NCBI GenBank assembly: GCA_030524205.1
Contig: JAUNGZ010000013.1
Location: forward strand, 1-63,446
Reading direction: 5' to 3'
DNA from: Eubacteriales bacterium
GTDB taxonomy: Bacteria; Bacillota; Clostridia; Oscillospirales; Butyricicoccaceae
Length of the DNA stretch: 63,446 nucleotides
Positions within the stretch are counted from its first letter, which is position 1. Each line of letters opens with the position of its first letter. Below the pieces are notes generated by a model that saw nothing but the letters and a program-made list of their open reading frames with translations, was not told where the DNA came from and made no database searches. The position numbers were made by a program, and so were the translations under genes. Positions 40,078 to 58,238 of this stretch are shown here, piece by piece.

Positions 40078-40541
40078 TGTATTCTCCCATATCGAAATAT
40101 AAACCACAAAGCGGCCGGCGCGGAAACCGCCAGCGCCGCCCCGAGGTACAGATGCGAGGCAATGTACTGCAGGGCGCGCGGCAGCACGCCCTCCCCGATA
40201 AAAATGCACAGGCCGACCGCCACGCAGGCCGCCGCGCACACGAACACGCCCGCAGCGGCGATATCCTTGGCGTTGCGCACCATGCCGTCGTAGCCCGAGG
40301 CCTGCTTGTCGCACAGGCGCTCGATCGCGGTGTTCATCAGCTCCGCGCCCATCGTCAGGCCGAAGCAGACGCAGAGGATCGCGCCCTCCGCCGTCGTGGC
40401 GCGCCCCATAAGCGCGAACGCGGTCACGTAAAACGCCGTGACCATATGCACGCGGAAGTTGCGCTCCCCATGGATGCAAAGCCCCAGACCGCGGAACGCA
40501 TTGAGAAAGCTCTCGTGCAGCTTGCGGATGTTTTTCTTCAT
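40074..40541 (-). CDS. dgkA: Diacylglycerol/undecaprenol kinase family protein
   Basis: 155 residues. The motifs NFRVHMVTA, ELMNTAIERLCD and AKDIAAAGVFV are those of the DgkA/UdpK family, followed by an extra pair of C-terminal hydrophobic helices. Firmicute members phosphorylate undecaprenol. An alternative ATG is at 40550. Coupled to era. Confidence 0.92.
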   Translation of the reverse strand: MKKNIRKLHESFLNAFRGLGLCIHGERNFRVHMVTAFYVTAFALMGRATTAEGAILCVCFGLTMGAELMNTAIERLCDKQASGYDGMVRNAKDIAAAGVFVCAAACVAVGLCIFIGEGVLPRALQYIASHLYLGAALAVSAPAALWFIFRYGRIQ

Positions 40542-40542
40542 A

Positions 40543-41046
40543 TCAGGCATCTCTCGTCAGCCCCAAAAAAGCGAGGTTTTCCTCCTCCTTGGCGCGCATC
40601 AGGCGGGCGTCCTGCTCGCCCCGCTCATGGTCGTAGCCCAGCAGGTGCAGCACCGAATGCGTGGTCAGGTATCCGCATTCCCGCGCGGGCGAATGGCCGA
40701 ACTCCGCCGCCTGCTCGCAGGCGCGCGTATAGCACAGGATCATATCGCCCAGCATGACGCAGCCCGAGTCCGGCTCGGTTTCCAGCTCCTCCTGCGCCTT
40801 GCCGTTTAAAAATTCATACATCGGGAAGGACAGCACGTCGGTCACGGCGTCCTTCTCCCGGTATTCGGCGTTCATCGCGCGGATATCGTCCGCGTCGACC
40901 ACGGTAACGTCGATTTCGGCGGCAAACGGCACGTTTTCGCTTGCAAGCACGCGTTTGGCGCAGGTTTCGATCAGCTCGCGGACGGCTTGCTCGTCCGCCA
41001 CCTCGGTGTCGAACCCAATATTGATCTGATGCTCCCGCTTTTCCAC
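40543..41046 (-). CDS. ybeY: Endoribonuclease YbeY
   Basis: 167 residues from GTG 41046, with GGGGAGGGA upstream. The zinc motif HSVLHLLGYDH and DVLSFPM are diagnostic. It processes rRNA ends and takes part in ribosome quality control. Upstream lies a promoter and hairpin block B. Confidence 0.95.
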   Translation of the reverse strand: MEKREHQINIGFDTEVADEQAVRELIETCAKRVLASENVPFAAEIDVTVVDADDIRAMNAEYREKDAVTDVLSFPMYEFLNGKAQEELETEPDSGCVMLGDMILCYTRACEQAAEFGHSPARECGYLTTHSVLHLLGYDHERGEQDARLMRAKEEENLAFLGLTRDA

Positions 41047-41089
41047 GCGGCGTCCCTCCCCATCTATTCCTGTTGCCGGCTGTTTCTAT

Positions 41090-41117
41090 ATTATACCGTT
41101 TGTTTCGCGTTTTGAAC
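41090..41117 (-). promoter_or_regulatory. Promoter of ybeY-dgkA-era-recO
   Basis: GTTCAA, 16 nt, TATAAT on the minus strand. Confidence 0.6.
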
Positions 41118-41132
41118 AGCCCAATCGCCAAA

Positions 41133-41386
41133 AAAGCAGGCGAAAAGCCGCCTGCTTTCAGCTTGTCAAAAAAGTCCTCGCGCCGCAGCGCGTTTCAAAT
41201 AGAAAATGGCGGCAACGCCGCCATTGCTCTCATTAAATCGCCGCACGGCGGCGAAAGCGGATAGAGGGCTACGGCCTCATAAAAAGTCGCGGCATAAGGT
41301 GAATTGCCCCTGTGGGGCAATTCACCTTATGCCCGCAAGGCGCCCGCAGAAGCCGGAATTTCGATCGGAAGCGTGGTTTCGATCGA
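41133..41386. repeat. Block of consecutive hairpins (block B)
   Basis: Between the traX-like gene and ybeY, with no gene inside. Units: 41133-41158 (AAAGCAGGCG arms), 41179-41192 (CGCGC), 41205-41225 (AATGGCGGC), 41238-41254 (TCGCCGC), 41291-41333 (perfect 20-bp arms, loop TGT), and the 26-bp shared element at 41361-41386 (minus orientation). Loops are short, mostly 3-6 nt. Confidence 0.85.
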
Positions 41387-41394
41387 GTGGCCGT

Positions 41395-42149
41395 TCACCC
41401 GCCGATCATCACGCCCACGTTTCCGTGCAGCGCGAGGCGGAGCAGACCGCAGGCAGCCAAATGCAGCGGATAATACGCATAAAAGAACCATCCGCCGCCC
41501 TTCCGCGCGCCCCTCTCGCCGTTATAGCGCCCCAGCAGCGGAATCGAAAGCGCGACGAACAGTTGGAGCGCGCCGTAAACCGGATGGATGAAAACGGCGT
41601 ATACGGCGGCGTATGCCGCCACCCAAACCATCATGCCCGTCATCTGCTTTTTGAAATCGCCCCGGTTTTGTCCGATGTACAGAATAGCCATCACGGCGAT
41701 GCTGCTCCAATCCGCGCAGAACGCGGCCGCAGCAAGCAGCAGAATCAGCAGGGTCTTCTGCCGCCGCTTCAGCCCCGCGCTGTCATTGACCGCCAAGGCG
41801 AGCAGGCCGCAGAACAGCGCCCAGATGACGCTCGTCTGGTTGAACACCGTCGTTTGAAACGGGATAAACGGTATGCCGAACGCAAAGTTGTAGGCAAAAT
41901 GCCCGAGCACGGCGAAAACCAGCAGCCTGCCCGCGTATTTTCTCCAATCGCGCGTGTAATGATAGCCCTCCGCGATGAAAAACCAGAAGATCGGCGCCGC
42001 TATCCTGCCGATAACATGCAGCGCGAGAATCCACCAAGCCGTCGGATAGCCGGGAAACAGGACCGAGGTCAGATGATCCACCGTCATGGCGATCATCGCA
42101 ATCAGCTTCAGCCGGCTTTCATCCAGCTGTTTTGGACGCGCGCCGCCGC

Positions 42150-42153
<4 letters not shown>
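41395..42153 (-). CDS. TraX family membrane protein
   Basis: 252 residues, about eight membrane helices. The opening LKLIAMIAMTVDHLTSVLFPG, GRIAAPIFWFFIAEGYHYT and YAYYPLHLAACGLL are typical of TraX (PF05857), known from F-pilin acetylation but common as chromosomal acyltransferase-like proteins of unknown substrate. Its start overlaps the phoH stop (ATGA). Its presence separates phoH from ybeY; in Bacillus this place holds the 7TM-HD gene yqfF. Confidence 0.88.
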
Positions 42154-43193
<1,040 letters not shown>

Positions 43194-43227
43194 TTTCCCG
43201 CGCGGCCCAAACGCCGCCGCGCGGATG

Positions 43228-44460
43228 TTACGGCGCGGCCCCGTCCTCCTCCGCCGCGGGCGGCTCGGCCGGGATCTCGCTGTCGTCGAGCGCTTCCTCG
43301 CCGATCTGCTCGACCGCGTCGGCGGTCAGCTTCAAAACGGCCGCGCCGTTTTGCTCGGTCACGTTTTCGGTGTGCGCGGTGATCGTGCCGTCCATTCCGG
43401 CCGCGATATCGCCCAGCGCGCGGGCGATCATATCGACGCGCACCTCGTCCGCCGTGCGGGTCACGGTTTCACGCTCATAAAAAACAAAGGTCTGCTCGAC
43501 AAGCGACACGGGGAAAACCACGCTGTCCGACAGCCACGCCGTCTTTGTTTTTATTATTTTATCACAAGTGCCGCCCGCAATTCCACTCCCAAAATATAAA
43601 TTTAACCGTTTATTTCCGAAAACAAGCGCATATTGCCGCCGCACCTTGCCCGTGTAAACCTTTTTGTCCACCGTCAGCGCCCGCGCGGCGGTCGTTTGAT
43701 ACGCCGTGTACGCGTCGACCGCGCCGCGCGCGTGCGTCAAATGGTAGGCGCCTCCCTCGGCAGTCGGCGGCACCAGTCCGGAAATCAGCGTGTCGCCCGC
43801 CGCGACCGCATCTCCCGCCCGCACCGCGGGCTGGCCGTCCTGCACGCGCAGCGCGCGGATCACGCCGTCACGCACGGCGACCACCTTGACCACCGCGTCC
43901 TGATCGAGCATTTCGGACGGCTTTTCCGCGCCGCGCGCCTCGACCGTCAGGCGGTTGCCCTCGATATTGAGCATAAAGTACGTCATATCCGGCTGCATTT
44001 TGAGTATTTTCCAGCGGATCTGCTTGACGTCGATCGCGCGCCGCCGCGCGCCGATGCGCACGCCCAGCTCGTCAAGCTGCCGCATGATCTCGGCGCGCGG
44101 CAGCGTCTGGTCAATATGCGCCTCGATGGCCCAAATATGCGTGCACAGCGCCCAGAGCAGCAAAATCAGCGCGGCCAGACCGCCCCACAGCGCGTACCGC
44201 GGCCGCAGCTTTTCCGCCGCAAACGGCGCGCCGCGCCGCCGCACAATATGCACCCGGCAGCCGGTGCGTCCCATACAGCCCCGCAGCGCCCGGAAATCCG
44301 CGACCGACAGCGTCGCGTATAATTCATTCCACGCGGTGCGCTTCATGTGCCGCAGCGTCAGCGAGTTTTGCGCGCAGGCGTTTAAAAAACGCGGCAGGCT
44401 CGCCCCTGTCACGCGCACGCGTACCTGTCCGCGCGCCAGCAGCCAAAGCCGCCCTATCAT
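43228..44460 (-). CDS. yqfD: Sporulation protein YqfD
   Basis: 410 residues from ATG 44460 with GGAGGAGGG upstream. The N-terminus MIGRLWLLARGQVRVRVTGA, a membrane helix near residue 100, and a large extracytoplasmic part match YqfD. In Bacillus the gene is sporulation-specific (SigE). The C-terminus is an acidic, Ala/Glu/Pro-rich tail. Coupled with yqfC. Confidence 0.9.
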   Translation of the reverse strand: MIGRLWLLARGQVRVRVTGASLPRFLNACAQNSLTLRHMKRTAWNELYATLSVADFRALRGCMGRTGCRVHIVRRRGAPFAAEKLRPRYALWGGLAALILLLWALCTHIWAIEAHIDQTLPRAEIMRQLDELGVRIGARRRAIDVKQIRWKILKMQPDMTYFMLNIEGNRLTVEARGAEKPSEMLDQDAVVKVVAVRDGVIRALRVQDGQPAVRAGDAVAAGDTLISGLVPPTAEGGAYHLTHARGAVDAYTAYQTTAARALTVDKKVYTGKVRRQYALVFGNKRLNLYFGSGIAGGTCDKIIKTKTAWLSDSVVFPVSLVEQTFVFYERETVTRTADEVRVDMIARALGDIAAGMDGTITAHTENVTEQNGAAVLKLTADAVEQIGEEALDDSEIPAEPPAAEEDGAAP

Positions 44461-44489
44461 CCGTTTCCCTCCTCCATGCCCGAAGCGGA

Positions 44490-44750
44490 CTATCCGCCCG
44501 AGGTGTATTCCACCGAAACGATCGTACCGGTCACGGCCAGCTCGTCGAGCGAAAGCGCCGCCAGCGTCAGCCCGTCTCCCGTGATGCGCACCTCGCAGCC
44601 GCTGCACCGAACGCGCAGCAGGCCGTCGTCATATTCCAAAATTCCGCGGTGGTTTTCCACTACGACCCGGCTGTTGCCGATGATCTCCACCCGCGGGCGG
44701 CTGCTGTGCAAATCCTCCGCCAGAGCCGCGCCAAACCCATCGTGCGCCAT
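44490..44750 (-). CDS. yqfC: Sporulation protein YqfC (YabP family)
   Basis: 86 residues. VEIIGNSRVVVENHRGILEYDDGLLRV and a C-terminal LAVTGTIVSVEY match the YabP/YqfC fold. The yqfC-yqfD-phoH order is typical of spore formers. A SigE-like -10 lies 24 nt upstream. Confidence 0.93.
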   Translation of the reverse strand: MAHDGFGAALAEDLHSSRPRVEIIGNSRVVVENHRGILEYDDGLLRVRCSGCEVRITGDGLTLAALSLDELAVTGTIVSVEYTSGG

Positions 44751-44773
44751 GCGTTTCCTCCTCCGTTCGGGCT

Positions 44774-44818
44774 ATTGTATGCGCTCCCGGCATCAAACTT
44801 GCCTGCCGGACATAGGCT
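44774..44818. promoter_or_regulatory. Divergent SigE-like promoter elements
   Basis: On the minus strand CATACAAT (44774-44781) is a full match to the SigE -10 consensus in front of yqfC. On the plus strand GGCATCAAA and CATAGGCT (44811-44818) resemble a weaker SigE pair in front of ylbJ. Both genes belong to the SigE regulon in Bacillus. Confidence 0.55.
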
Positions 44819-44847
44819 GAACGACCGAGTTTATCCGAGGTGAAGCT

Positions 44848-45888
44848 ATGAAGCTGTTTTTGTCGCTCGCGCTGTTTTTCGCGTTTCTGCTCTGCCCCGC
44901 CGCCTGCGCCGACGGCGTGCGCGACGGGCTCTCCCTCGCCGCGCGCGAGGCGCTGCCCGCGCTCTTCCCCTTCTTTCTGGCCAGCGGCTTGATCGTGCGC
45001 ACCGGTCTTGCCGCGCGGCTTGCCCGGCTCGCCGCGCGGCCGCTCGCCTTTTTGTACGGCCTGCCGCCCGAGGCCGCGCCCGCGGTCGTCCTAGGGCTGA
45101 CCGGCGGGTATCCGGTCGGCGCGGCGACCGTTGCCGAGTTGCTGGGTCAGGGCGCGCTGCAAAAGGAGGACGCCGCGCGCGTCAACGCCTTCTGCAACTG
45201 CGCCAGCCCCGGCTTCTGCATTGGGCTGGTCGGTCTGGGCGTTTTCGGCAGCGCGCGGACGGGCGCCGTTTTATACGGCGTTCACGCGCTCGCCGCGCTG
45301 CTGACCGGGCTGTTCGCCGCGCGAAGCGCCGGCGGAGGAAAAATTCCGCGCCGCGCCGCGCTACCGCCCGCGGACGAGGGCTTTTCCGCTGCTTTCTGCG
45401 GCGCGGCCCAGCAGGCCGCGGCGACCGCGCTGACCGTGACGGCCTTTCTGACTGTTTTCTCCGTGCTGCTCGCCCTGCTGGGCCCGGTCCTGCACGCCGT
45501 GCCGAGCGGCGATATGCTGACCGGCGTGATCGAGCTGACCAACGGGCTGGATGAGCTTTCGGCGCTGCCGCTGCCCATCGGCGCGCAGCTTACGCTGGCC
45601 TCGTTCCTGCTGGGCTTCGGCGGCCTGTCCGTGCAGTTTCAGGTGCGCGCGCTTGCCGCGCCGTTCGAGCTTCCCATGGGCGGCTTCACCGCCGCCAAGC
45701 TGCTGCACGGCACGATTGCCGCGGCGCTGACCGCGTTTTTATTCCATCTGTCGCCCGAAGCGCTGACCGTATTCGCGCCCAACGCCGCGCAGAAAGCCGC
45801 CGTTCAGGATTGGACGGGCGCGGTTTTGCTGATTCTTTTGATCGTATTTCCATTTTGGGGTGGAAAAAAGCCGAAAAATGCAGTATAA
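44848..45888 (+). CDS. ylbJ: YlbJ-like sporulation integral membrane protein
   Basis: 346 residues, about eight hydrophobic segments. REALPALFPFFLASGLIV, GLTGGYPVGAATVAEL and NAFCNCASPGFCIG match YlbJ, of the nucleoside-recognition (Gate) family. Needed for heat-resistant spores in Bacillus. AGGTG upstream of the ATG. Divergent from yqfC. Confidence 0.9.
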   Translation: MKLFLSLALFFAFLLCPAACADGVRDGLSLAAREALPALFPFFLASGLIVRTGLAARLARLAARPLAFLYGLPPEAAPAVVLGLTGGYPVGAATVAELLGQGALQKEDAARVNAFCNCASPGFCIGLVGLGVFGSARTGAVLYGVHALAALLTGLFAARSAGGGKIPRRAALPPADEGFSAAFCGAAQQAAATALTVTAFLTVFSVLLALLGPVLHAVPSGDMLTGVIELTNGLDELSALPLPIGAQLTLASFLLGFGGLSVQFQVRALAAPFELPMGGFTAAKLLHGTIAAALTAFLFHLSPEALTVFAPNAAQKAAVQDWTGAVLLILLIVFPFWGGKKPKNAV

Positions 45889-45979
45889 TAAAATATAATT
45901 TAAAGTTCTCCTTTTCAACAAAAAGGATTCGCCCGCGCGTCGCGGGAACATAAAAAACATATTTTAGGAGTGACAACGC

Positions 45980-46219
45980 ATGAAGCTTAAAAAGCTGCTG
46001 CGACGGGATATCGAACCACGCTGTACGTACTGCGCGCACGGCACACCGCTGGCCGACGGACAGCGTCTGACCTGCCGCCGCCGCGGCGTGGTGGACGGAG
46101 CGGACCACTGCCGCGCGTTCCGCTACGACCCGCTGCGCCGCACGCCGCCCAAGCCGGCCGCGATCCGCGGCAAGTTCACCAAGGCGGACTTCTCGCTGGA
46201 GGACGCGCATGAAAAATAA
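45980..46219 (+). CDS. Small Cys-containing protein, function unknown
   Basis: 79 residues: MKLKKLLRRDIEPRCTYCAH with a CxxC pair, then CRRRG and CRAFRYDPLRR, giving four cysteines that could bind zinc. Ends in GKFTKADFSLEDA. Proteins of this plan are widespread in Clostridia without known role. TTTAGGAGTG upstream. The last 11 nt overlap the next gene. Confidence 0.75.
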   Translation: MKLKKLLRRDIEPRCTYCAHGTPLADGQRLTCRRRGVVDGADHCRAFRYDPLRRTPPKPAAIRGKFTKADFSLEDAHEK

Positions 46220-47666
46220 CGGTTTATTCCGCCGTCTGTCGGCGCTTGCGCTTTGCTGCGCGCTTCTGCTGGCGCTTCCCCTGCCCCAAGCCTTCGCCAC
46301 TGGCGACGATTTTGACGAGGACGTAAGCGACACCGATACCGCCGGTCAGGACGGCGCTGCCGACGCCGGCGGCACGCAGGACGCCACCACCTCCGGCGGG
46401 CTGGCTGATCCCCAAATCGACGCGACCGCCGCGCTGCTGGTCAATCCGGACACCGGCATGGTGCTGTATGAGAAAAACGCGGACGAAAAACGCTATCCGG
46501 CCTCGACCACCAAAATCATGACCGCGCTGCTCACGCTTGAACACGCCGACCTTGCCGACACCGTGACCGCCGAGGAAGTGGATTTCGAGGGCGTCGCGGC
46601 CGACGCCTCCAACGCCGATATCAAGGTCGGCGAAACGGTGACGGTAAAGGATCTGCTGTACGCGATCATGCTGCCCTCCGCAAACGAGGCGGCCAACATG
46701 CTGGCGCGCCACGTCGGCGGTTCGGTCGAAGGCTTTGTGGAAATGATGAACGCCAAGGCCGAGGAGCTGGGCTGCAAGGGCACGCACTTTATGAACGCCA
46801 ACGGCCTGCACGATCCCGAGCACTACACAACGGCGCGCGACCTGCTGATCATCACGCAGGCCGTCATGCAGGACGAAACCTTTACCAATATCGTCGATAC
46901 CGTACAGTACCGCATGGCGGCGACTAATATGCATCAGGAACGCATCATTTACACCACCAACCAGCTGATTTTCAGCAGCTTCCAGCCGTGGTATTACGCC
47001 TACTGCAAGGGCGTTAAAACCGGCCATACCTCGGAGGCGGGCAACTGTCTGGTGTCCTACGCGGTGCGCGGCAAGGCGCGGCTGTATTCGGTCGTGCTGG
47101 GCTGCGCGGACGCGCCGGATTCCTCCACCGTGGCCAAAAGCTTTACCTCAACCTCCCAGCTGTTCGACTGGGGCTTTACCAATTTTGTATCCAAAACGCT
47201 CGCCAAAAAAGGCGACGAAATCACCCGCGTCAAAATTGAGCTCTCCACTGACACGGACGAGCTGGTGCTGACCGCCCAGAACGATCTGGTCGCCTCGATC
47301 CCGAAAAATCTGGAGCTGGAGGATCTGGACGCCACCCCGACCGTGCCCGAAAGCCGCAAAGCGCCCGTCAAAGCGGGCGATGTGATCGGCAGCCTGACGT
47401 ATTCCTACGCGGGCGTCGAATACGGCACGGTGCAGCTTGTCGCGCTGAACGATGTGGAGATGAGCCAAGTGCTCTATTACGCGGACAAGCTTGAGAATTT
47501 CTTCAAAAGCTCGGTTTTCAAGATCGTTCTCGTAGTACTCGCCATATTTATCGTTCTGTATATCCTGTTCAACCTGACCTTTGGCGGCATGCGCCGCCGC
47601 AAGCAGCGCAAGAATATGCGCTCGCGATACGAAAACGCCAATTATCAGCGCAGACGCAGAAAATAA
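46209..47666 (+). CDS. D-alanyl-D-alanine carboxypeptidase (DacF/PBP5 type)
   Basis: 485 residues. Signal peptide, a ~50-residue acidic linker, then the S11 peptidase: STTK (active Ser), SAN and KTG in GVKTGHTSEAGNC. A C-terminal domain and a membrane helix (IVLVVLAIFIVLYILF) follow, ending in a basic tail. It trims the pentapeptide of peptidoglycan. Overlaps the Cys-protein gene. Confidence 0.94.
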   Translation: MKNNGLFRRLSALALCCALLLALPLPQAFATGDDFDEDVSDTDTAGQDGAADAGGTQDATTSGGLADPQIDATAALLVNPDTGMVLYEKNADEKRYPASTTKIMTALLTLEHADLADTVTAEEVDFEGVAADASNADIKVGETVTVKDLLYAIMLPSANEAANMLARHVGGSVEGFVEMMNAKAEELGCKGTHFMNANGLHDPEHYTTARDLLIITQAVMQDETFTNIVDTVQYRMAATNMHQERIIYTTNQLIFSSFQPWYYAYCKGVKTGHTSEAGNCLVSYAVRGKARLYSVVLGCADAPDSSTVAKSFTSTSQLFDWGFTNFVSKTLAKKGDEITRVKIELSTDTDELVLTAQNDLVASIPKNLELEDLDATPTVPESRKAPVKAGDVIGSLTYSYAGVEYGTVQLVALNDVEMSQVLYYADKLENFFKSSVFKIVLVVLAIFIVLYILFNLTFGGMRRRKQRKNMRSRYENANYQRRRRK

Positions 47667-47684
47667 GCGGAAACCGAAAAGAAA

Positions 47685-47715
47685 AAGAAGCCGCCCAAGA
47701 GGGCGGCTTCTTTTT
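47685..47715. terminator. Terminator between convergent genes
   Basis: AAGAAGCCGCCC-AAGA-GGGCGGCTTCTT hairpin with A and T runs on both sides. Confidence 0.9.
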
Positions 47716-47719
47716 GCGG

Positions 47720-48286
47720 TTAAATTTTCGCCATCTGCGCGTTGACCGCGTCCTCGGTGGCGCGCATCGCGTCAAGCGTCTGCGAGAGCAGCTCGTCGAG
47801 CGTCAGGCCGCACAGCTCGGCGCCCTGCGCGATCACCTCGCGCGAGCAGCCGGCGGCAAATTTTTTATCCTTGTACTTCTTTTTCAGACTCTTCAGCTCC
47901 ATATCCTGCACGCTTTTCGAGGGGCGCATCAGCGCGGCCGCGCCGATCAGCCCGGTCAGCTCGTCGGAGGCGAACAGCAGCTTTTCCATCTCGTGCGTCG
48001 GTTCAACCTCCGAGCAGAGTCCCCAGCCGTGGCTGCACACCGCGTGAACCGTTTGCTCGTCCGCGCCGCCCGCGCGCAGCAGCTCGGGCGCTTTTTGGCA
48101 GTGCTCCTCCGGCCATTGTTCAAAGTCGATATCGTGCAGCAGGCCGACCGTGCCCCAGAAATCCGCGTCCTCGCCCCGCCGCTCCGCAAAATACCGCATC
48201 ACGGCCTCGACCGTCAGCGCGTGCCGCAGATGAAACGGCTCCTTGTTGTACTGCCGCAGCAGCTCCCATGCTTTTTGCCTTTCCAT
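47720..48286 (-). CDS. HD domain hydrolase
   Basis: 188 residues. The metal motif begins H in RHALTVEAVMRYF, with the HD pair in LLHDIDFEQWP and further His in HAVCSHGWG. It resembles small HD phosphohydrolases of unknown substrate. Start 48286 follows CCGGAGG. The 26-bp palindrome of block C lies just upstream. Confidence 0.85.
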   Translation of the reverse strand: MERQKAWELLRQYNKEPFHLRHALTVEAVMRYFAERRGEDADFWGTVGLLHDIDFEQWPEEHCQKAPELLRAGGADEQTVHAVCSHGWGLCSEVEPTHEMEKLLFASDELTGLIGAAALMRPSKSVQDMELKSLKKKYKDKKFAAGCSREVIAQGAELCGLTLDELLSQTLDAMRATEDAVNAQMAKI

Positions 48287-48302
48287 AAAAACCTCCGGTT
48301 TT

Positions 48303-48710
48303 TCGATTGCGACCACGCTCGCAATCGAGAGTTCCGCCTGCGAACCGCGCCCTACGGGCACAGTTCTCCGGCAGTTTGTAAAAATTCCAAGGCGCATGTC
48401 CTTGGAATTTTTGAAAATGGCGGCGCTGCCGCCATTTTCTCTTGAAATACGCGCCTCCGGCGCGAATCCTCAAAGCAGCCGCGCCCCGCGCGGCGAGCTT
48501 TCCCCCGCCCGCAGGCGCGCACGACAGCGCGATACAATCCGGATTTTGCCCTGCAAAATCCATACAAAACGCGAGCTTCGCCCGCGCTTTGTATCCCCCG
48601 ACTCCAGCGGCCTTGGGCCGCGTCCGGGGGTATCGCGGTGAAGTTTCCAAGAAACTTCACCGCGTATATAGGGGGCATGGATGCCCCCTATAATAGGCCG
48701 AAGGCCTATT
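48303..48710. repeat. Block of twelve consecutive hairpins (block C)
   Basis: No gene in the 420-bp gap. Units in order: 48303-48328 (shared 26-bp element), 48342-48366, 48380-48412 (13-bp arms), 48413-48439 (GAAAATGGCGGC, loop GCT), 48450-48464, 48478-48494, 48541-48561 (GGATTTTGC), 48562-48594, 48595-48630, 48634-48664 (CGCGGTGAAGTTTC, 14-bp arms, loop CAA), 48667-48692 (TATAGGGGGCAT, loop GG), 48692-48710 (AATAGGCC). The last overlaps the rodA stop codon. Several are directly adjacent without spacer. Confidence 0.9.
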
Positions 48711-49836
48711 GGAGCCACGACGGCTTCTCCCGCATCCGCACGCCCGCCGCAATGCCAAGCGCGGCGAACATCGTGACGACCGAGGTGCCGCCGTAGGAAA
48801 AGAACGGCAGCGTCAGGCCCATAACAGGCAGCAGGCCGACGCACATGAAGATGTTCATAAACGTCTGGAACAGGAACATGCCCGCGATGCCGACCGCCAG
48901 CATGGACGAAAACGCCGTCGACGCGCGGTAGCTGACGTAGAACAGGCGCGCAATCAGCAGCACCAGCAGGCAGATGATGATGACGCAGCCGACAAAGCCC
49001 AGTTCCTCGCCCGCGACCGAGAAAATATAGTCGGTCTGATTTTCCGGTACGATCTGCATCTGCGTCATCGTGCCGCTTGTCAGCCCCTGCCCCGTCATCT
49101 GCCCGGCGCCGATCGCGATTTTTCCGTTCGTTGTCTGCCGGGCAAGATCAGGGTTGATGGAAGGATCAAACAGAACCAAAATGCGGTTCTTTTGATAATC
49201 CTGCAGCAGGAAATTCCACAGCAGCGGCACGCTCGCCACGCCGAGCACCGCGCCCACGCCGATCCACCGCAGCGGCATTCCCGCCGCGAACAGCATGATC
49301 AGCGCGATCATGAAATATTGGATCGCCATGCCGGTATCGCCCGAGGAAACCACCACCGCGCCCATCATGATCAGCGTGTGCAGGCCGATCGCGAACAGCC
49401 CCTGCCACTCGCTGATGTGCTCCTTGATTTCAGAAATATGCGCGGCCAGCGTGAAAATGAAAATCAGCTTGCCCAACTCGCCCGGCTGCAGATTGGTCAC
49501 GCCCAGATTGAGCCACGCGCGCTGACCGTTGACCTCGATGCCAAGCGGCGTGAACAGCAGCAGCTGCAAGCCGATATTGACTAAAATAAAGATTTTCCAC
49601 CAGTTGCTCATGGATTCCAGATCAATCAGGCTCATCACGACGAACGCGCCCAAACCGATCACGATCGCCGCGCCCTGTATCACCAAATTGCGCGTGCTGC
49701 CGTCAAGCGCGGTCACCGGGTTGAGCGTCGCCGAATAAATCAAAACCATGCCGAACGCCGAACACAGCAGCGCGAGTATAATCAAATAAAGGTCGGTATT
49801 CTTAATGTAATGCTTTACGGCCTTGAAAATGTCCAT
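48706..49836 (-). CDS. rodA: SEDS glycosyltransferase RodA
   Basis: 376 residues, about ten membrane segments. GQRAWLNLGVTNLQPGELGKL, a VVSSGDTGMA segment, QTDYIFSVAGEELGF and GLTLPFFSYGGTSVV are SEDS motifs; the close match to RodA rather than FtsW fits the stand-alone location. It polymerises peptidoglycan for cell elongation. Confidence 0.93.
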   Translation of the reverse strand: MDIFKAVKHYIKNTDLYLIILALLCSAFGMVLIYSATLNPVTALDGSTRNLVIQGAAIVIGLGAFVVMSLIDLESMSNWWKIFILVNIGLQLLLFTPLGIEVNGQRAWLNLGVTNLQPGELGKLIFIFTLAAHISEIKEHISEWQGLFAIGLHTLIMMGAVVVSSGDTGMAIQYFMIALIMLFAAGMPLRWIGVGAVLGVASVPLLWNFLLQDYQKNRILVLFDPSINPDLARQTTNGKIAIGAGQMTGQGLTSGTMTQMQIVPENQTDYIFSVAGEELGFVGCVIIICLLVLLIARLFYVSYRASTAFSSMLAVGIAGMFLFQTFMNIFMCVGLLPVMGLTLPFFSYGGTSVVTMFAALGIAAGVRMREKPSWLQ

Positions 49837-49956
49837 GCCGACCCTCCTTTTCTCAAAATAAATGTCTGCTTTATATCATACCACAACAGGAGGGCGTTTG
49901 CGAGAAGCAATTTCGGCAAATTTTTTGCCCGTCACGCTGGAAAACTGTGCAGAACA

Positions 49957-49966
49957 TTGCTATAAT
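49957..49966 (+). promoter_or_regulatory. Extended -10 promoter of fhs
   Basis: TTGC-TATAAT (TGn extended -10), 35 nt before the start. Confidence 0.55.
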
Positions 49967-50001
49967 GATGTCACTGTGTAAATGTACGGGAGGAAATGAG
50001 T

Positions 50002-51672
50002 ATGCTATCCGATATTGAAATCGCGCAGAACTGCCGGCTGCGCCCCATTACCGAGGTCGCTTCCGCCGCCGGGCTGGACGCCGACGATCTGGAGCTGTAC
50101 GGCAAATACAAGGCCAAGCTGTCCGCCGAGGTGTGGAACAAGGCCAAGGACATGCCGAACGGCAAGCTGGTGCTTGTCACCGCGATCAACCCCACGCCCG
50201 CGGGCGAGGGCAAAACGACCACGACCGTCGGCCTCGGCCAAGCACTGGCAAAGCTGGGCAAAAAAGCGATGATCGCGCTGCGCGAGCCCTCGCTCGGCCC
50301 GGTGTTCGGCGTCAAGGGCGGCGCGGCGGGCGGCGGCTACGCGCAGGTCGTGCCGATGGAGGACATCAACCTGCACTTCACCGGCGACATGCACGCCATC
50401 ACCGCCGCGAACAACCTGCTGTGCGCCATGCTGGACAACCATATGCAGCAGGGCAACCTGCTGAACATCGACCCGCGCCGCATCATTTTCACCCGCGTGA
50501 TGGATATGAACGACCGCGCCCTGCGCAACATCACCATCGGCCTTGGCGGCAAGGCCAACGGCGTGCCGCGCGAGGATCATTTTATGATCACGGTCGCAAG
50601 CGAAATTATGGCCATCCTGTGTCTCGCCTCCGACCTTGCCGATCTGAAAAAACGGTTCGGCGACATTCTGGTCGCCTATTCCTATGCCGGCAAGCCGATT
50701 TATGCAAGGGACCTGCGCGCCGAGGGGGCAATGGCCGCCTTGATGCGCGACGCGATCAAGCCCAATCTGGTGCAGACGCTCGAGGGCACGCCCTGCCTGA
50801 TGCACGGCGGTCCGTTCGCCAACATCGCGCACGGCTGCAACAGCGTGCAGGCCACCGGTCTCGCCCTCAAGCTTGCCGACGTCGCCGTGACCGAGGCAGG
50901 CTTCGGCGCAGACCTCGGCGCGGAAAAATTCATGGACATCAAATGCCGCAAGGCCGGGCTTTCGCCCGACTGCATCGTGCTGGTGGCGACGGTGCGCGCG
51001 CTCAAGTATAACGGCGGCGTGCCCAAGGCCGAGCTGAACGCCCCCGACCTCGCGGCGCTCGAGCGCGGCATCTGCAACCTCGACGCGCATCTGGACAATA
51101 TGGAGAAATTCGGCGTGCCGGTCGTCGTCGCGGTAAACGCCTTCCCGACCGATACCGAGGAGGAGGTCGCCTTCATCCGCGAGCACTGCGCAAAGCGCGG
51201 CGTGCGCGTGGCGCTCTCCGAGGTGTTCGCCAAGGGCGGCGAGGGCGGCAAGGCGCTGGCAAGCGAGGTGCTCGCCGTCCTCGACGAGGGCAAGGCCGAT
51301 TTCCGCCTGCTGTATGAGGACGAGCTGCCGCTCGAGCAGAAGATCCGCCGCATTGCCAAGGAAATTTACGGCGCGCTCGGCGTGACCATTGCGCCCGCCG
51401 CGCATAAGGAGCTGCAGAACATTACCGAAATGGGCTACGGCCATCTGCCGGTATGCGTGGCTAAAACGCAGTATTCGCTGTCGGACGACCCGGCGCTGCT
51501 CGGCCGGCCGACCGAGTTTGTCGTAAACGTCCGCTCGGCGCGGCTGGCGGCTGGCGCGGGCTTCGTCGTCGTCGAGACCGGCGCGATCATGACCATGCCC
51601 GGCTTGCCCAAAATCCCCGCCGCCGAAAAAATCGACGTGACGGGCGACGGGAAGATCACGGGATTATTCTGA
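50002..51672 (+). CDS. fhs: Formate-tetrahydrofolate ligase
   Basis: 556 residues. Nucleotide motif [15 protein letters not shown] at 65-79, [21 protein letters not shown], and [16 protein letters not shown] are typical. It makes 10-formyl-THF from formate, used for purine synthesis and C1 metabolism in anaerobes. ATG 50002 is better spaced from GGGAGG than 49996. No other Wood-Ljungdahl genes nearby. Hairpin block D follows 5 nt after the stop. Confidence 0.97.
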
Positions 51673-51677
51673 TACGT

Positions 51678-51782
51678 TTGATTGGAACCACGGTTCCAAT
51701 CGAAGGACGCCCTTCCGGCCTTCGGCCGGAAAGGACTTACGCGCCGAAGCGCCCGCGGAATTTTCATTCCGCGGGCGCTTCG
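51678..51782. repeat. Block of consecutive hairpins (block D)
   Basis: Between convergent fhs and pdaA-like genes. Units: shared 26-bp element at 51678-51703, 51713-51731 (TTCCGGCC, loop TTC), and 51745-51782 (17-bp perfect arms starting CGAAGCGCCCGCGGAAT, loop TTTC). No gene in 51783-51883. Confidence 0.85.
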
Positions 51783-51883
51783 CCTTTGTATCAGCCCGTA
51801 GGCCTGTATCCTCTTACCGCTGCCGCCGTTCCCTATTCAATATGCGCTGCGCGCGGTGGAAGGGACTTGCCGCCGAAAAAGCG

Positions 51884-53098
51884 TCAGTCCGTCGGCGCGC
51901 TTTGCGCATCGGCGTACGACCGGGACGTATCCAGCCCGACCGCCTGCGTTTCCCTGTCGTAGGTCACGCAGCAGTCGAGCGCGCGCGCCAGATCGCGCAG
52001 CCCCACATAATTCGCCCCGTCGATCGAATACGCATCCACGCCGAGCGGCGCGCCGTCCAGCGTGATCGTCTGCGGGCTGGCGTACGCCTGCACCGCCGCC
52101 GCGTCGCGCGGCCCCGCAAGCTCGGCTCCGTTCGGCGCGTAGACCTCGCCGCTTACCAGCGCCACGCTGTCGCTCGCCTTGTCGTAGGACACCGAAAACG
52201 CCTTTTCCGTTCCGGCAAGCGCCTGCGCGGCGTCACGCAATTTGACGTAATTGCTGCCGCCGATCAAGAACGCCGTCGGCGCGGCCGGCGCGCCGTCCAC
52301 GGTAAACGCGGCGGCGTTGGGGACGGCGGTCACCGTCGGATTCGGCAGGCCGGGCAGGGCGGACAGAGCCGCAAATTCGTAGCCCTTGGCCTTCCAGTCG
52401 GTGATCAGCTCGTCCAGCACGGCCGCGTCCGTCGAGGAAATGGCGTGCAGCAGCACGATCGCGCCGTTGTGCACGCGGGCGTCGAGCGTCTGCATCGCGG
52501 AGGCATAGGAGGGCTGGTCGTTCACGTCGTAATCCTTATAGGCCACGCTCCACAGCGTCGTGTGGTAGCCGAGCGACTGCGCCCAGCGCAGGTTGTCGTA
52601 GGTGTACGAGCCCTCGGGCGGGCGGAAAAACGGCGCGAGACGGCGGCCCGTGACGGCGGCGTACTTGGTTTCCAGACCGCGCAGCTCGCTTTCGAACCGC
52701 TCCTGCGAGACCTTGGTCATGTTCGGATGGTTGACCGAGTGGCTGCCCACCAGATGTCCCTCGTCCCCCATGCGCTTTGCGAGCGCGGGCGCGGCGTCCA
52801 GATAATGCCCGACGACGAAAAACACCGCGGGCACGTGCCGCCGTTTGAGCGTATCAAGGATTTTCGCCGTGTTGCCGTTTTCATATCCGCAGTCGAAGGT
52901 GAGATAAATCGTCTTGTCCGCCGCGCCGCCCATGTAGTACGCGCCGTACCGCGCGAGGGTCTCGGCCGTGTCCTCGCCCGAGGGCGGCATATTGGCCCCG
53001 TTTCGGTAGGAAAGTCCCCAGTCGGTCGCGCCCGCCGCGCCCCCGAGCAGGCCGCACGCCAGCGCGGCGCACACGAACCGTTTGAACGGATTCTTCAT
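51884..53098 (-). CDS. Polysaccharide deacetylase, PdaA-like, with stalk domains
   Basis: 404 residues. Signal peptide (KRFVCAALACGLLGGAAGA), then a NodB domain: TFDCGYENGNTAKIL, the metal-binding GSHSVNHPN, RPPEGSYTYDNL, and LLHAIS near its end. The C-terminal third has two copper-amine-oxidase-N-type stalk repeats (DGAPAAPTAFLIGGSNYVKLRD; LDGAPLGVDAYSIDGANYVGLRD). PdaA removes acetyl groups from MurNAc for the spore cortex. Divergent from the ABC-F gene. Confidence 0.9.
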   Translation of the reverse strand: MKNPFKRFVCAALACGLLGGAAGATDWGLSYRNGANMPPSGEDTAETLARYGAYYMGGAADKTIYLTFDCGYENGNTAKILDTLKRRHVPAVFFVVGHYLDAAPALAKRMGDEGHLVGSHSVNHPNMTKVSQERFESELRGLETKYAAVTGRRLAPFFRPPEGSYTYDNLRWAQSLGYHTTLWSVAYKDYDVNDQPSYASAMQTLDARVHNGAIVLLHAISSTDAAVLDELITDWKAKGYEFAALSALPGLPNPTVTAVPNAAAFTVDGAPAAPTAFLIGGSNYVKLRDAAQALAGTEKAFSVSYDKASDSVALVSGEVYAPNGAELAGPRDAAAVQAYASPQTITLDGAPLGVDAYSIDGANYVGLRDLARALDCCVTYDRETQAVGLDTSRSYADAQSAPTD

Positions 53099-53125
53099 TA
53101 AAAATCCCCTCCTGTCCTTTTGTTC

Positions 53126-53154
53126 AGTATAGCAAACGTCCGCCCGCTTGACAA
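53126..53154 (-). promoter_or_regulatory. Promoter of the pdaA-like gene
   Basis: TTGTCA, 17 nt, TATACT on the minus strand. Its -35 overlaps the -35 of the divergent promoter at 53148. Confidence 0.75.
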
Positions 53155-53176
53155 CCGCCGAAAAACGCGGTATACT
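53148..53176 (+). promoter_or_regulatory. Promoter of the ABC-F leader
   Basis: TTGACA, 17 nt, TATACT. Confidence 0.85.
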
Positions 53177-53207
53177 GCTCGTAAGTTTAAGGATTTGAGG
53201 TGGAAGG

Positions 53208-53216
53208 ATGAAGTAA
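53208..53216 (+). CDS. Two-codon leader ORF (Met-Lys-stop)
   Basis: ATG AAG TAA preceded by GAGGTGGAAGG in the leader of the ABC-F gene. Its stop codon is the first part of the large terminator hairpin, so ribosome stalling here would keep the hairpin from forming. Very short leader ORFs are known before some antibiotic-response genes. Confidence 0.55.
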   Translation: MK

Positions 53217-53293
53217 GCTCTCTTGCAGAAAATGACTGACGGGCAAACCCGCCGCGGTTTGTCATGCCGTTTTGCAGGAAAGCTTATTTTTTT
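53214..53293 (+). terminator. Attenuator hairpin in the ABC-F leader
   Basis: Outer arms TAAGCT/AGCTTA, then TGCA...AAAATGAC paired with GTCAT...TTTTGCA, and inner CAAACC/GGTTTG; followed by TTTTTTT. It ends about 90 nt before the ABC-F start codon, so it must be overcome for expression. Confidence 0.75.
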
Positions 53294-53379
53294 CTTTGCC
53301 GCCTTTTTTTGCGCCCTCGTGCGTCCGAAAGCGGCCTGTTTTCCTGCGCCGTCTTTTGTCACACGGGAGGTGCATTTTT

Positions 53380-54855
53380 ATGTCCATTATCGAAATTACA
53401 AACCTAAGCTTCGGTTATGAAGGCAGCTACGAAAATATTTTTGAAAACGTGTCGCTTCGGCTGGATACCGATTGGCGGCTCGGCCTCGTCGGGCGCAACG
53501 GACGCGGCAAAACAACGCTTTTGCGCCTTTTGCAGGGTGCATACGAATATGCAGGGCAGATCCGCTCGTCCCTGTCGTTCGACTATTTTCCCTTTCCCGC
53601 GCCCGACCCGGCAAAAAGCGCGCTTGACGCGGTCGAGGCCATCGCGCCCGATTACGAATATTGGCGCTTTGCGCGCGAGCTGCACTGGCTCGGCCTGTCC
53701 GACGAGGTCCTGTACCGCCCGTACGGCACGCTGTCCGGCGGCGAACAGGTCAAAACGCTGCTCGCCCTGCTGTTTTCGCGCGAAAACCGCTTTCTTCTGA
53801 TCGACGAGCCGACAAACCACCTCGATCTGGCGGGCCGCGCGCTCGTGGCCGATTATCTGCGCTCGAAAAGCGGGTTTCTGCTTGTTTCGCACGACCGCGC
53901 ATTCCTTGACGGCTGCGTCGACCATATTTTGTCGATCAATAAAATGAATATCGAGCTGCAAAAGGGCAATTTCTCCTCTTGGTTCTGCAATAAGGCGCGG
54001 CAGGACGCTTTTGAGCTGGCCGAGAACGAACGGCTGCGCGGCGATATCCGCCGGTTGGACGAAGCGGCGCGCCGCGCCGCCCGTTGGTCGGACAGGACCG
54101 AGCAGGGCAAGCACGCGCGCAATTCCGGCCTGCGTCCCGACCGTGGCTTTGTCGGCCACAAGGCGGCCAAGCTGATGCAGCGCGCCAAATCCATCGAAGC
54201 GCGCAAAACGGAGGCCGCCGCCGAAAAAGCGGCGCTGCTGCACAATATCGAGCGCGCGGACGAGTTGGCGCTTCACCCGCTTGTCTACCGCGCGCAGACG
54301 CTGATCGAGCTGACCGACGTCTGCGTCCGGTACGGCGGCGCGCCGGTCGTCGAGGGCGTGCGGTTTGCCGTCGCGCGCGGCGCGCGCATCGCGCTTTCCG
54401 GCCCGAACGGCTGCGGCAAATCCAGCCTGCTCCGGCTGGCCGCCGGACTGGACGTGCCCCATACCGGCGAGGTGCGCCGCGGCAGCGGGCTGACCGTGTC
54501 CTACGTGCCGCAGGACGCTTCCTTCCTCTCCGGCAGCGTGACCGGCTACGCCGCGCGGTGCGGCGTAGACCGCAGCCTGTTTCTGACCATTCTGCGCAAG
54601 CTGGACTTTCCGCGCGCGCTGTTTGAACGGGACATGGCTTTTTACAGCGAGGGGCAGAAAAAGAAGGTTCTGCTCGCCCGCAGCCTGTGCGAGCAGGCGC
54701 ATCTCTACATCTGGGACGAGCCGCTGAATTTCATTGATGTATTCTCCCGCATCCAGCTCGAACGGCTGCTGGACGAATACCGGCCGACGCTGCTGTTCGT
54801 CGAGCACGACAGGGCGTTCTGCGACCGGATCGCGACCGAGACTGTCCGCCTGTGA
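53380..54855 (+). CDS. ABC-F ATPase, Lsa-type ribosomal protection family
   Basis: 491 residues with two ABC domains and no membrane part. First Walker A GRNGRGKTTLL (~residue 39), signature LSGGEQVK, DEPTNHLDLAG; second GPNGCGKSSLL, a degenerate signature SEGQKKKVLLARSL, and IWDEPLNFIDVF. The linker carries DAFELAENERLRGDI and SDRTEQGKHARNSG. This pattern (YIWDEPLN in domain 2, SEGQKKK signature) is typical of the Lsa/Vga-like group that displaces lincosamide, pleuromutilin and streptogramin A antibiotics. The attenuated leader fits. Actual resistance is untested. Confidence 0.88.
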   Translation: MSIIEITNLSFGYEGSYENIFENVSLRLDTDWRLGLVGRNGRGKTTLLRLLQGAYEYAGQIRSSLSFDYFPFPAPDPAKSALDAVEAIAPDYEYWRFARELHWLGLSDEVLYRPYGTLSGGEQVKTLLALLFSRENRFLLIDEPTNHLDLAGRALVADYLRSKSGFLLVSHDRAFLDGCVDHILSINKMNIELQKGNFSSWFCNKARQDAFELAENERLRGDIRRLDEAARRAARWSDRTEQGKHARNSGLRPDRGFVGHKAAKLMQRAKSIEARKTEAAAEKAALLHNIERADELALHPLVYRAQTLIELTDVCVRYGGAPVVEGVRFAVARGARIALSGPNGCGKSSLLRLAAGLDVPHTGEVRRGSGLTVSYVPQDASFLSGSVTGYAARCGVDRSLFLTILRKLDFPRALFERDMAFYSEGQKKKVLLARSLCEQAHLYIWDEPLNFIDVFSRIQLERLLDEYRPTLLFVEHDRAFCDRIATETVRL

Positions 54856-54857
54856 CC

Positions 54858-54886
54858 TTGCCATTTCCCGCCCGCCGTGGTATGAT
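54858..54886 (+). promoter_or_regulatory. Promoter of tsaE-tsaB
   Basis: TTGCCA, 17 nt, TATGAT. Confidence 0.65.
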
Positions 54887-54921
54887 AAGCAGAGAATTTT
54901 CACACAGGAAAAGGTGTTTGA

Positions 54922-55347
54922 ATGGAAGTGACCACCCATTCCCCCGAGCAGACCGAGGCGCTCGGCGCGGAATATGCCAAAACGCTGCGGCCGGGCGATG
55001 TGGTCGCCTTTTCGGGCGATCTCGGCGCGGGCAAAACGGCGTTCACGCGCGGCATTCTGCGCGGCCTTGGCTACGAGGGCCGCGTGACCAGCCCGACCTT
55101 TGCCATCGCAAACGAATACGAAACCCCGGGCGGGCCGGTCGTGCACTGCGACCTGTACCGCCTGCTCGACAGCGAGGCGCTGTTCGAGATCGGCTTTGAC
55201 GAATATCTGGACGGCCGCCGCATCGTGCTGATCGAGTGGAGCGAAAACGCCGCCGGCGTGCTGCCCGAATGCCATAAAACCGTGCATATTGCGTACGGGA
55301 AGGCGGAAAACGACCGTATCATCACGACCGGGGAGGCGAAAGCATGA
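54922..55347 (+). CDS. tsaE: tRNA t6A biosynthesis ATPase TsaE
   Basis: 141 residues. Walker A GDLGAGKT at 32-39, SPTFAIANEYETPGG, HCDLYRLLD and IEWSENA are diagnostic. Part of the threonylcarbamoyl transfer complex. Its stop overlaps the tsaB start (ATGA). Confidence 0.96.
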   Translation: MEVTTHSPEQTEALGAEYAKTLRPGDVVAFSGDLGAGKTAFTRGILRGLGYEGRVTSPTFAIANEYETPGGPVVHCDLYRLLDSEALFEIGFDEYLDGRRIVLIEWSENAAGVLPECHKTVHIAYGKAENDRIITTGEAKA

Positions 55348-56045
55348 AAATCTTGGCGTTTGAGTCAAGCGCGGTTTCCGCCTCGGTCACGCTGACCGAG
55401 GACGAAAGGCTGATCGCGCAATCCTTTCAAAACTGCGGCCTGACGCACTCGCGCACGCTGCTGCCCATGGCGGAAAGCCTGCTGGCAAACTGCGGCGTGC
55501 CGCTTGGCGATATCGACGTGCTCGCCGTCGCGCACGGCCCCGGCTCGTTCACCGGCGTGCGCATCGGTGTGGCGACCGTCAAGGGCCTTGCGCTCGGCGC
55601 GGGCAAGCCCTGCGTCGGCGTGTCCACGCTCGAGGCGATGGCCTGGGGCGCGCGCGCCCTCGGCGGCGGGCTGTGCTGCGTGATGGACGCCCGCGCGGGA
55701 CAGGTGTACAACGCGCTGTTTTCCATCGAAAACGGCGTGCCGCGCCGCCTGTGCGGCGACCGCGCGGTCAAGCTTGCCGACCTCGGCGAAGAAATCGGCC
55801 AAACGCCGTATTTTCTGGTTGGAGACGGGGCCGATCTATGTTATAATATGCTCAAAGAGAACTGCGCGGGGCTCGTCCCCGCGCCGCCCGAGCTGCGCTA
55901 CGCCGCCGGATACGGCGTGGCGGCGGCGGCGCTGCCGCTTGCGCGCGCGGGCAGGGTCTGCGACCCCCAGCAGCTCGACGCGTTTTATCTGCGCCGGCCG
56001 CAGGCCGAGCGCGAACGTCTGAGCCGTCTTTCCGGGCAAAACTGA
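55344..56045 (+). CDS. tsaB: tRNA t6A biosynthesis protein TsaB
   Basis: 233 residues, ASKHA fold. ILAFESSAVSASVTL, GLTHSRTLLPMAE, HGPGSFTGVRIGVATVKGLA are family motifs. It is the TsaD partner in t6A synthesis. rimI and tsaD, which often follow, are not here; upp follows instead. Confidence 0.95.
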   Translation: MKILAFESSAVSASVTLTEDERLIAQSFQNCGLTHSRTLLPMAESLLANCGVPLGDIDVLAVAHGPGSFTGVRIGVATVKGLALGAGKPCVGVSTLEAMAWGARALGGGLCCVMDARAGQVYNALFSIENGVPRRLCGDRAVKLADLGEEIGQTPYFLVGDGADLCYNMLKENCAGLVPAPPELRYAAGYGVAAAALPLARAGRVCDPQQLDAFYLRRPQAERERLSRLSGQN

Positions 56046-56057
56046 ACACCAAGATAA

Positions 56058-56702
<645 letters not shown>

Positions 56703-56707
56703 ATTTT

Positions 56708-56938
56708 CGATTGAAACCACGCTTTCAATCGAAGCGGCCATGCCGGAACGCTGTTCCGGACATGTCCAAATCGGGAAAAAGTTCCGACACGCGAAACTTT
56801 TTCCCTTCCTTGTATCAAAAGCGCGGGCGGAGCTCGCGCTTTTGATACAACTTGCGGCGAGCCGCAAGTTTCTATTGAATGGCGCTGCGGCGCGAGAAAA
56901 AAGAGAACAACGTGCGGTGCGGCGGAGAGCCGCACCGT
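56708..56938. repeat. Block of consecutive hairpins (block E)
   Basis: Between upp and the acetyltransferase gene. Units: shared 26-bp element at 56708-56733, 56741-56764 (CCGGAAC, loop GCT), 56774-56806 (GGGAAAAAGTT), 56811-56851 (16-bp arms TTGTATCAAAAGCGCG), 56850-56871 (AACTTGCGGC, loop GA) and 56916-56938 (CGGTGCGGC), the last followed by TTTTT just before the next gene. Confidence 0.85.
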
Positions 56939-56956
56939 TTTTATGGAGATACCTTT

Positions 56957-57496
56957 ATGGAACTGCAAGTTTTTGAAACCGAATCCGAGCGGCTGCGCTT
57001 CCGGCGGCTGCGGGCGGACGATTTCGCGCTCGTCGCCCCCATATTGCAGGACGAGCAGACCATGTACGCGTGGGAGCACGCCTTTTCTTACGACGAGGTG
57101 ATCGACTGGATCGCGGACATGCTGCGCCGCTACCGCGAGGACGGCTGCGGCTGCTGGGCGGCGCTCGACAAGGTCTCGGGCGAGCTGGCCGCGCTCGCGG
57201 GCGTTATTCTGGAAGCGCCTGAAGAAGGCGAAGCCCCCTGCCCCGCGCTGCTCTGCATCGTCGCGCGGGAGCGCTGGGCGCAGGGCTACGGCGCAGAATG
57301 CGCCAAGGCCGCGCTGGCCTACGCCTTTGACCGGCTGGAGGCCGAACGCGTGATCGCGCTGATCCGGCCGGAAAACGAGCCCTCGCTGCGCGTTGCCGCG
57401 GCCTGCGGCATGCGTCCCGTAGGGCAGATGGTCAAGCATTATCAAGGCAAGGAGCTGCCGCACTTGATCTGCGAAGCCGTCCGGCCGCAGGCATGA
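56957..57496 (+). CDS. GNAT N-acetyltransferase
   Basis: 179 residues. FETESERLRFRRLRADDFALV opening, ARERWAQGYGAECAKAALAYAF (acetyl-CoA site) and NEPSLRVAAACGMRPVGQ are typical of the RimJ/RimL-like group. The ATG at 56957 is 8 nt after GGAG. Substrate unknown. Confidence 0.87.
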   Translation: MELQVFETESERLRFRRLRADDFALVAPILQDEQTMYAWEHAFSYDEVIDWIADMLRRYREDGCGCWAALDKVSGELAALAGVILEAPEEGEAPCPALLCIVARERWAQGYGAECAKAALAYAFDRLEAERVIALIRPENEPSLRVAAACGMRPVGQMVKHYQGKELPHLICEAVRPQA

Positions 57497-57498
57497 AA

Positions 57499-57524
57499 AA
57501 AAACCGCCCTCCGGGCGGTTTTTT
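57499..57524. terminator. Terminator between convergent genes
   Basis: AAAACCGCCC-TCC-GGGCGGTTTT hairpin flanked by A and T runs. Confidence 0.9.
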
Positions 57525-57526
57525 AT

Positions 57527-58221: not shown

Positions 58222-58238
58222 GATAAATGCTTCCTTTC

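Follow-up and report, generated by a model that had tools for sequence, protein, structure and literature searches.

A 26-bp palindrome behind stop codons in an Agathobaculum relative is probably one hairpin of a MITE-like element that targets terminators

Why should the same oriented palindrome stand a few nucleotides behind the stop codons of different genes? The question arises from the window, a stretch of 63,446 nucleotides (contig JAUNGZ010000013.1) from an Agathobaculum relative whose genome assembly (G000) comprises 2.21 Mb in 47 contigs and is 82% complete. The initial annotation had described four copies of a 26-bp palindrome here, which we call HP1. A search allowing up to three mismatches returned exactly four matches (Table 1), and 100 dinucleotide shuffles of the window gave none. 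Three of the copies lie precisely where they had been placed, while the fourth begins one base to the left of the 56708 first given. Two copies fit the pattern exactly; those at 41361 (TCGATCG...CCGATCGA) and 51678 (which starts TTGATTG and contains ACCACGGT) each carry two mismatches. Pfam confirms the neighboring gene calls traX, fhs, and upp, but gives no match at E ≤ 1e-5 for the proposed HD gene (47723-48289).

A genome-wide search and a covariance model, both suggested as checks when the palindrome was first described, show that the window holds a small part of a family. The strict search (≤3 mismatches) found 57 distinct sites with 33 distinct sequences in G000, against 0 sites for a backwards-pattern control, and the covariance model, run over both strands, matched 137 times; 79 sites were kept after removal of opposite-strand duplicates and the weakest matches. 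The reported covariation of the arms is strong: across 35 distinct sequences, pairing holds in 95.5% of cells and both sides have changed in 55, a count equaled in 0 of 500 shuffles, with a covariation score of 0.348 versus 0.126 for shuffled alignments. Pair 12-15 is either C-G or T-A in these sequences, so that only the central AC is both unpaired and invariant in that set; across the window's species, the outer TCG/CGA and the central AC are near-invariant. The idea of a constant, selected core did not survive the comparison. Positions 11/16 take several combinations within the palindrome's own family, and copies fetched from a sister species with a one-contig genome (G010) hold the same arms (TCGATCGAAA/TTTCGATCGA) around CAAAGCCCCA or a one-base variant of it instead of CCACGC. 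A further repeat subfamily, in A. desmolans, has a different sequence in the HP1 slot. Since slot or loop is replaced in both, the loop core is under no general constraint.

The placement just after a stop codon, in the sense direction, holds genome-wide. With gene positions in G000 taken from a simple gene finder trained on the fetched stretches, 58 of the 79 model sites (and 44 of the 57 strict ones) lie in sense between -8 and +16 nt from a stop codon, compared with 5.2% of random intergenic positions on a random strand, and the tabulation of distance and orientation that had been proposed finds only 1 of the 79 sites adjacent to a gene end in antisense. The remaining 21 sites include 6 at ≤30 nt from a gene start, 8 farther from a start, 4 that overlap a predicted gene, 2 farther past a gene end, and 1 at a contig end. 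Six G000 copies stand at distance -8 (for example C7:51476, C24:111168, and C41:4042); here, the stop codon ends at HP1 position 8, and the element itself supplies the end of the reading frame. Where HP1 stands beside a gene start, a small hairpin separates it from the start codon and holds the ribosome binding site (RBS) in its loop, as at 48285-48302 of the window and at C30:27790, C5:5238, and C41:28632 of G000.

HP1 had also been said to mark the edge of a hairpin block, and a real modular block does follow it. The complete element is a string of hairpins of about 160-270 bp, MITE-like and without a transposase gene. Starting from HP1, the block on its 3' side consists of a second module (type A, B, or C, or a short one) and the linker TTTGTAT, followed by HP3, a hairpin that resembles a terminator (A-run, GC stem, T-run), and then by HP4 (for example AAAATGGCGGC...GCCGCCATTTTC) and HP5 (for example GCGCGCTGCGGCGCG). 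The modules are interchangeable, and the block covaries as HP1 does. We excised 22 type-B blocks, while automated typing left 75 of 170 elements unclassified. A few HP1-like palindromes have no block (e.g., C7:52551 and C18:41131), and convergent genes may bear two facing elements (C4:45807/46121 and C28:50107/50428).

Table 1. Parts of the four element copies and adjoining terminators in the window.
Feature	Position	Strand	Basis or remark
Complete element of copy 1, with the traX-like gene on one side and the terminator of that gene on the other	41158..41386	-	component features below
HP1 of copy 1, 8 nt past traX stop	41361..41386	-	pattern match and Pfam
HP5 of copy 1	41179-41191	-	
Right end of copy 1, GACTTTTTTGACAAGCTGA	41158-41176	-	
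Terminator hairpin abutting right end of copy 1	41134..41157	-	AAGCAGGCGGCTTTTCGCCTGCTT then T-run
HP1 of copy 2, upstream of RBS of minus-strand gene (putative function)	48303..48328	+	
Type-B module, linker, and HP3 of copy 2	48330..48413	+	model R2 match, E 3.4e-14
HP4 (48413-48439) and HP5 (about 48451-48464) of copy 2	48413..48470	+	right end approximate
HP1 of copy 3, 5 nt past fhs stop	51678..51703	+	pattern match and Pfam
Type-A block of copy 3	51704..51870	+	right end approximate
Parts of copy 3: long hairpin 51745-51782, linker 51785-51793, HP5 51844-51855		+	
HP1 of copy 4, 4 nt past upp stop	56707..56732	+	pattern match and Pfam
Type-C block of copy 4 (linker and HP3 56810-56850, HP5 56881-56894)	56733..56911	+	right end approximate
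upp terminator hairpin, kept downstream of copy 4	56915..56937	+	similar hairpin behind upp in element-free congeners

Mobility of the family, with terminators as its target, is well supported by copies in sister species, which have terminal inverted repeats. Many of these copies carry a further hairpin, HP0, on the 5' side of HP1, which bears the terminal repeat GAGGCTGTCGAAAAAC..., and their right end reads ...TTTTTCGACA[AG][AG]CTGA. The left repeat is GAGRCTGTCGAAAAAC or CAGRCTGTCAAAAAAC, and the right one is about (C)TTTTTCGACARRCTGA. Whole terminator hairpins of the host gene flank the element on both sides in 17 of 21 testable HP0-bearing copies (17 of the 38 rows in this set were left out because their right end was not recognizable) and in 15 of 17 testable copies among the 20 fetched from G010, where the bounds of 3 elements were not determinable. 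Pooled and retested, this amounts to duplication of a whole terminator, 21-42 bp long, in 32 of 38 sister-species copies, and the duplicated targets differ in sequence from one copy to the next. A duplication score of at least 18 was reached by 31 of the 38 self pairs versus 3 of 1406 cross pairs serving as control, although one cross pair scored 29, above many self scores. Six of the tested sister copies have no duplication (L167, L069, L079, L136, L331, and L335). Counts of stop codons did not discriminate the orientation of the sister copies, at 26 of 32 either way.

Orthologous loci point to insertion in the same way. There is no element-like signal behind fhs in 22 of 23 congeners or behind upp in 23 of 24. 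The fhs exception, G015, has the fhs terminator on both sides of an element; the upp exception, G022, has what by eye is a decayed, inverted element-like stretch after upp. A terminator-like hairpin without an element follows soon after the upp stop in most congener loci as judged by eye, and a strict count of T-tailed hairpins gives 13 of 24 fhs loci and 11 of 25 upp loci. At upp in the window's genome, the element lies between stop codon and terminator. The locus after the gene at C24:101016 is an old one: the element is present there in the window's genome and five others, with several hairpins changed on both arms across these six genomes, and this persistence suggests that some copies may be retained by selection.

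The copies in the window's own genome are less complete than those of its sisters. The right repeat is recognizable in some of them only, the left repeat is missing, and no full HP0 and no convincing short target duplication were found; duplication of a terminator was seen in 0 of 57 tested, with 5 weak, chance-like matches. A terminator still follows the element at two of the four window copies (Table 1). Across G000, a strict finder, which misses visible hairpins, placed a terminator after HP5 in at least 7 of 46 copies, with HP5 not found in a further 12 of 58.

We judge it likely, at a probability of roughly 80%, that HP1 is a hairpin module of a non-autonomous MITE-like element that targets Rho-independent terminator hairpins by their structure, and not an independent signal. 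An incoming element would integrate at a terminator hairpin recognized by structure, its ends joining at the 5' feet once this hairpin is extruded, perhaps through an IS1182-family transposase acting in trans, and repair would then copy the whole stem-loop. As for the copies of the window's species, they may have lost the left repeat together with the upstream terminator copy, or they may have replaced the hairpin on insertion, as IS1272 does; either course would bring HP1 directly behind the stop codon, ahead of any other hairpin. An inserted copy has terminator-like hairpins of its own (A-run, GC stem, T-run), through which transcription may still terminate, so that insertion would be nearly neutral. 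Coordinated changes of the two arms would be maintained at the level of DNA, either by selection for hairpin DNA or by copying from arm to arm.

Such a target would also account for where the palindrome stands. The foot of the terminator hairpin lies at a median of 8 nt past the stop codon in 57 element-free G000 genes with a recognized terminator, a distance that matches that of HP1 in element-bearing genes. Because terminators stand just after stop codons, an element that lands on them would place an oriented palindrome there as well. The strength of the orientation bias in the window's genome (58 sense, 1 antisense) goes beyond what a symmetric hairpin target explains. We give about even odds to a broader proposal, namely that a genus-wide, hairpin-built family lands on terminators by structure and copies each one whole, representing the stem-loop-duplicating branch of such transposition; that in each genome it has come to occupy the 3' ends of dozens of genes; and that its own hairpins are kept near-perfect by arm-to-arm copying while modules are swapped. 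On the main reading already, the 3' ends of genes in a gut-bacterial genus are being remodeled by mobile DNA.

The closest published parallel is IS1272/TnSha1 of the IS1182 family. According to two reports, IS1272 targets a hairpin of any sequence, often a terminator, and deletes or replaces it without duplication (PMC4923244 and PMC5678879); the terminal inverted repeats of about 16 bp are a further likeness. The elements described here differ in that sister-species copies duplicate the whole hairpin, and in having no transposase gene. The same source outlines a "pathway b," modeled but not shown, in which a stem-loop attacked at its 5' foot would come out duplicated in full (PMC5678879), and our elements look like natural products of this pathway. 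With 32 natural examples of whole-hairpin duplication at hand, 5'-foot attack on an extruded hairpin becomes testable. The initial annotation had set against its own proposal the prospect that the pattern is a known REP-like or IS end; an IS-type end is what we find, and the REP-type half of that prospect fails for lack of a RAYT gene in the window's genome.

Other repeat classes share single traits with the family. Bacterial MITEs are likewise short, intergenic, gene-free, and bounded by terminal inverted repeats and a duplicated target, and their truncated copies resemble REPs (PMC10969869), but here the target duplication is of variable length, being the whole terminator, the interior is made of interchangeable covarying hairpins, and the element is G+C-rich. 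BOX, RUP, and SPRITE of pneumococcus are also modular intergenic repeats, with nesting and with SPRITE terminator-like; this likeness is one of description, and the accessible part of the same article does not mention terminator duplication for them (PMC10969869). IS1634/IS1549 resemble our elements in producing long direct repeats of variable length on insertion, but these span 8-514 bp, and no model or palindromic target is described in the accessible text (PMC2266710). Our search of mostly open literature found no published description of such a repeat in this genus and, in the accessible parts of the sources, no published whole-terminator duplication, which is no proof of novelty.

The candidate enzyme family is present in the genus. 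PF13751, the IS1182-type transposase domain, occurs in 9 of 25 genus genomes, but was found neither in the window's genome (82% complete) nor in G010, where copies are numerous. Two scanned PF13751 transposases belong to the IS1182 family by NCBIfam, and an IS1182-family element in G008 has ends AAATAAGGG(A/G)CTGTCGCACTA, similar to GAG(A/G)CTGTCGAAAAAC. Among end-repeat pairs 500-3500 bp apart in the fetched loci, G022, and G010, no autonomous element with exact ends was found. The fetched loci contain five such pairs, whose insides were searched for families where they recur among the G022 pairs. G022 has six pairs. In five of these intervals the longest open frames belong to Germane, FtsX, DUF6033 (next to a further frame that has no family), MatE, and IF3, with no transposase among them, and the sixth (L314) has no open frame above 122 codons. 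The sole pair in G010 is formed by the outer ends of two neighboring short copies with a glutamate-type dehydrogenase between them. At a contig edge of G022 (L309:2-388, contig C37), a fragment of the transposase family HTH_Tnp_1 lies beside, and outside, the end-repeat interval.

The family is concentrated in the genus. An exact-pattern scan of named genomes gave at least 107 stretches, and the 80 listed are all labeled Agathobaculum or Butyricicoccus. Among 60 genomes searched at ≤3 mismatches, HP1 occurs in the window's genome and in all of its 24 congeners except G005, G009, and G021; none of 12 genomes from other genera of the family has it, and 2 of 23 genomes of the order have one match each, the one listed having 3 mismatches and being chance-like. 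Model R2, the type-B block without HP1, finds matches in all 25 genomes of the genus and, in the rest of the family, in 8 of 62, so that G005, G009, and G021 carry the block despite lacking HP1. Phages searched with one copy, plasmids searched with another, and viral contigs searched with the HP1 pattern gave no match. One genome of another genus of the family (G036) has 44 R2 matches with modest E-values, the best being 5e-7, and may harbor a related repeat family. A second repeat subfamily in G022 (L307-L310) has the same left end and a different next hairpin (GTTTGGAC...CCAAAC).

These observations bear on three other readings. A structured 3'-untranslated RNA or terminator family, whose transcripts need the hairpins for termination, 3'-end protection, or binding of a protein or small RNA, with HP1 as the bound motif, would account for the strong covariation of HP1 and block, the sense orientation directly past stop codons, the terminator-like HP3, and the persistence of the element at C24:101016 through six genomes with both arms altered. 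A transcript under selection should, however, show G.U pairs in excess of A.C, and across 555 hairpins of 170 elements the non-Watson-Crick cells are 91 G.T and 131 A.C (HP1, 4 versus 6; HP3-like, 36 versus 60; others, 51 versus 65). HP3 may have a built-in A.C, so the A.C excess should not be over-read; a looser set of 183 HP1 sites gives 15 G.U versus 13 A.C, and a small terminator control of 36 hairpins gives 7 versus 4. Hence, covariation alone, from which selection on hairpin and loop had been concluded, does not prove selection on an RNA hairpin, because DNA synthesis that copies one arm from its partner would leave the same covariation; however strongly a bacterial intergenic repeat covaries, it need not be a functional RNA. 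The 21 Rfam matches in 40500-58500 of the window are weak and all below the gathering score. Taken with the insertion polymorphism at fhs and upp, the terminal repeats and terminator duplications, and the interchangeable loop and modules, this makes an RNA family unlikely as the explanation.

Still less probable is a site for a DNA-binding protein, be it a regulon palindrome or one bound by a chromosome-organizing or nucleoid-associated protein: the near-invariant TCG/CGA and AC of the window's species would suit it, but several arm positions change freely as pairs, HP1 is part of a longer element, and three congeners have the block without HP1 at ≤3 mismatches. The lowest probability of all, close to nil, goes to a REP/BIME family moved by a RAYT (Y1 HUH) transposase. 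Abundant, oriented extragenic palindromes are common to both, and 5 of the 25 genomes of the genus have Y1_Tnp genes, but PF01797 finds nothing in the window's genome or in 20 of the 25, and yet HP1 is in 21 of 24 congeners. To our knowledge, target duplications and terminal inverted repeats are not features of Y1-type transposition, and the presence of both here counts against such a mover. The RAYT/REP reading is thus largely refuted by the missing PF01797 in the window's genome, and the terminator-targeting MITE-like element remains the reading we prefer.

Some copies show additional structure. An extra hairpin stretch holding AAGGTGAATTG.../...CAATTCACCTT lies inside hairpins at 41291-41333 of the window and in L096, L097, L102, and L109, as if small hairpins insert into hairpin loops. 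After HP5, several copies (as in the downstream flanks of C7:45777 and C24:101016 in G000) are followed by short, tandem-like G-rich repeats (GACGGGGGACG...) with CGCGCCG hairpins.
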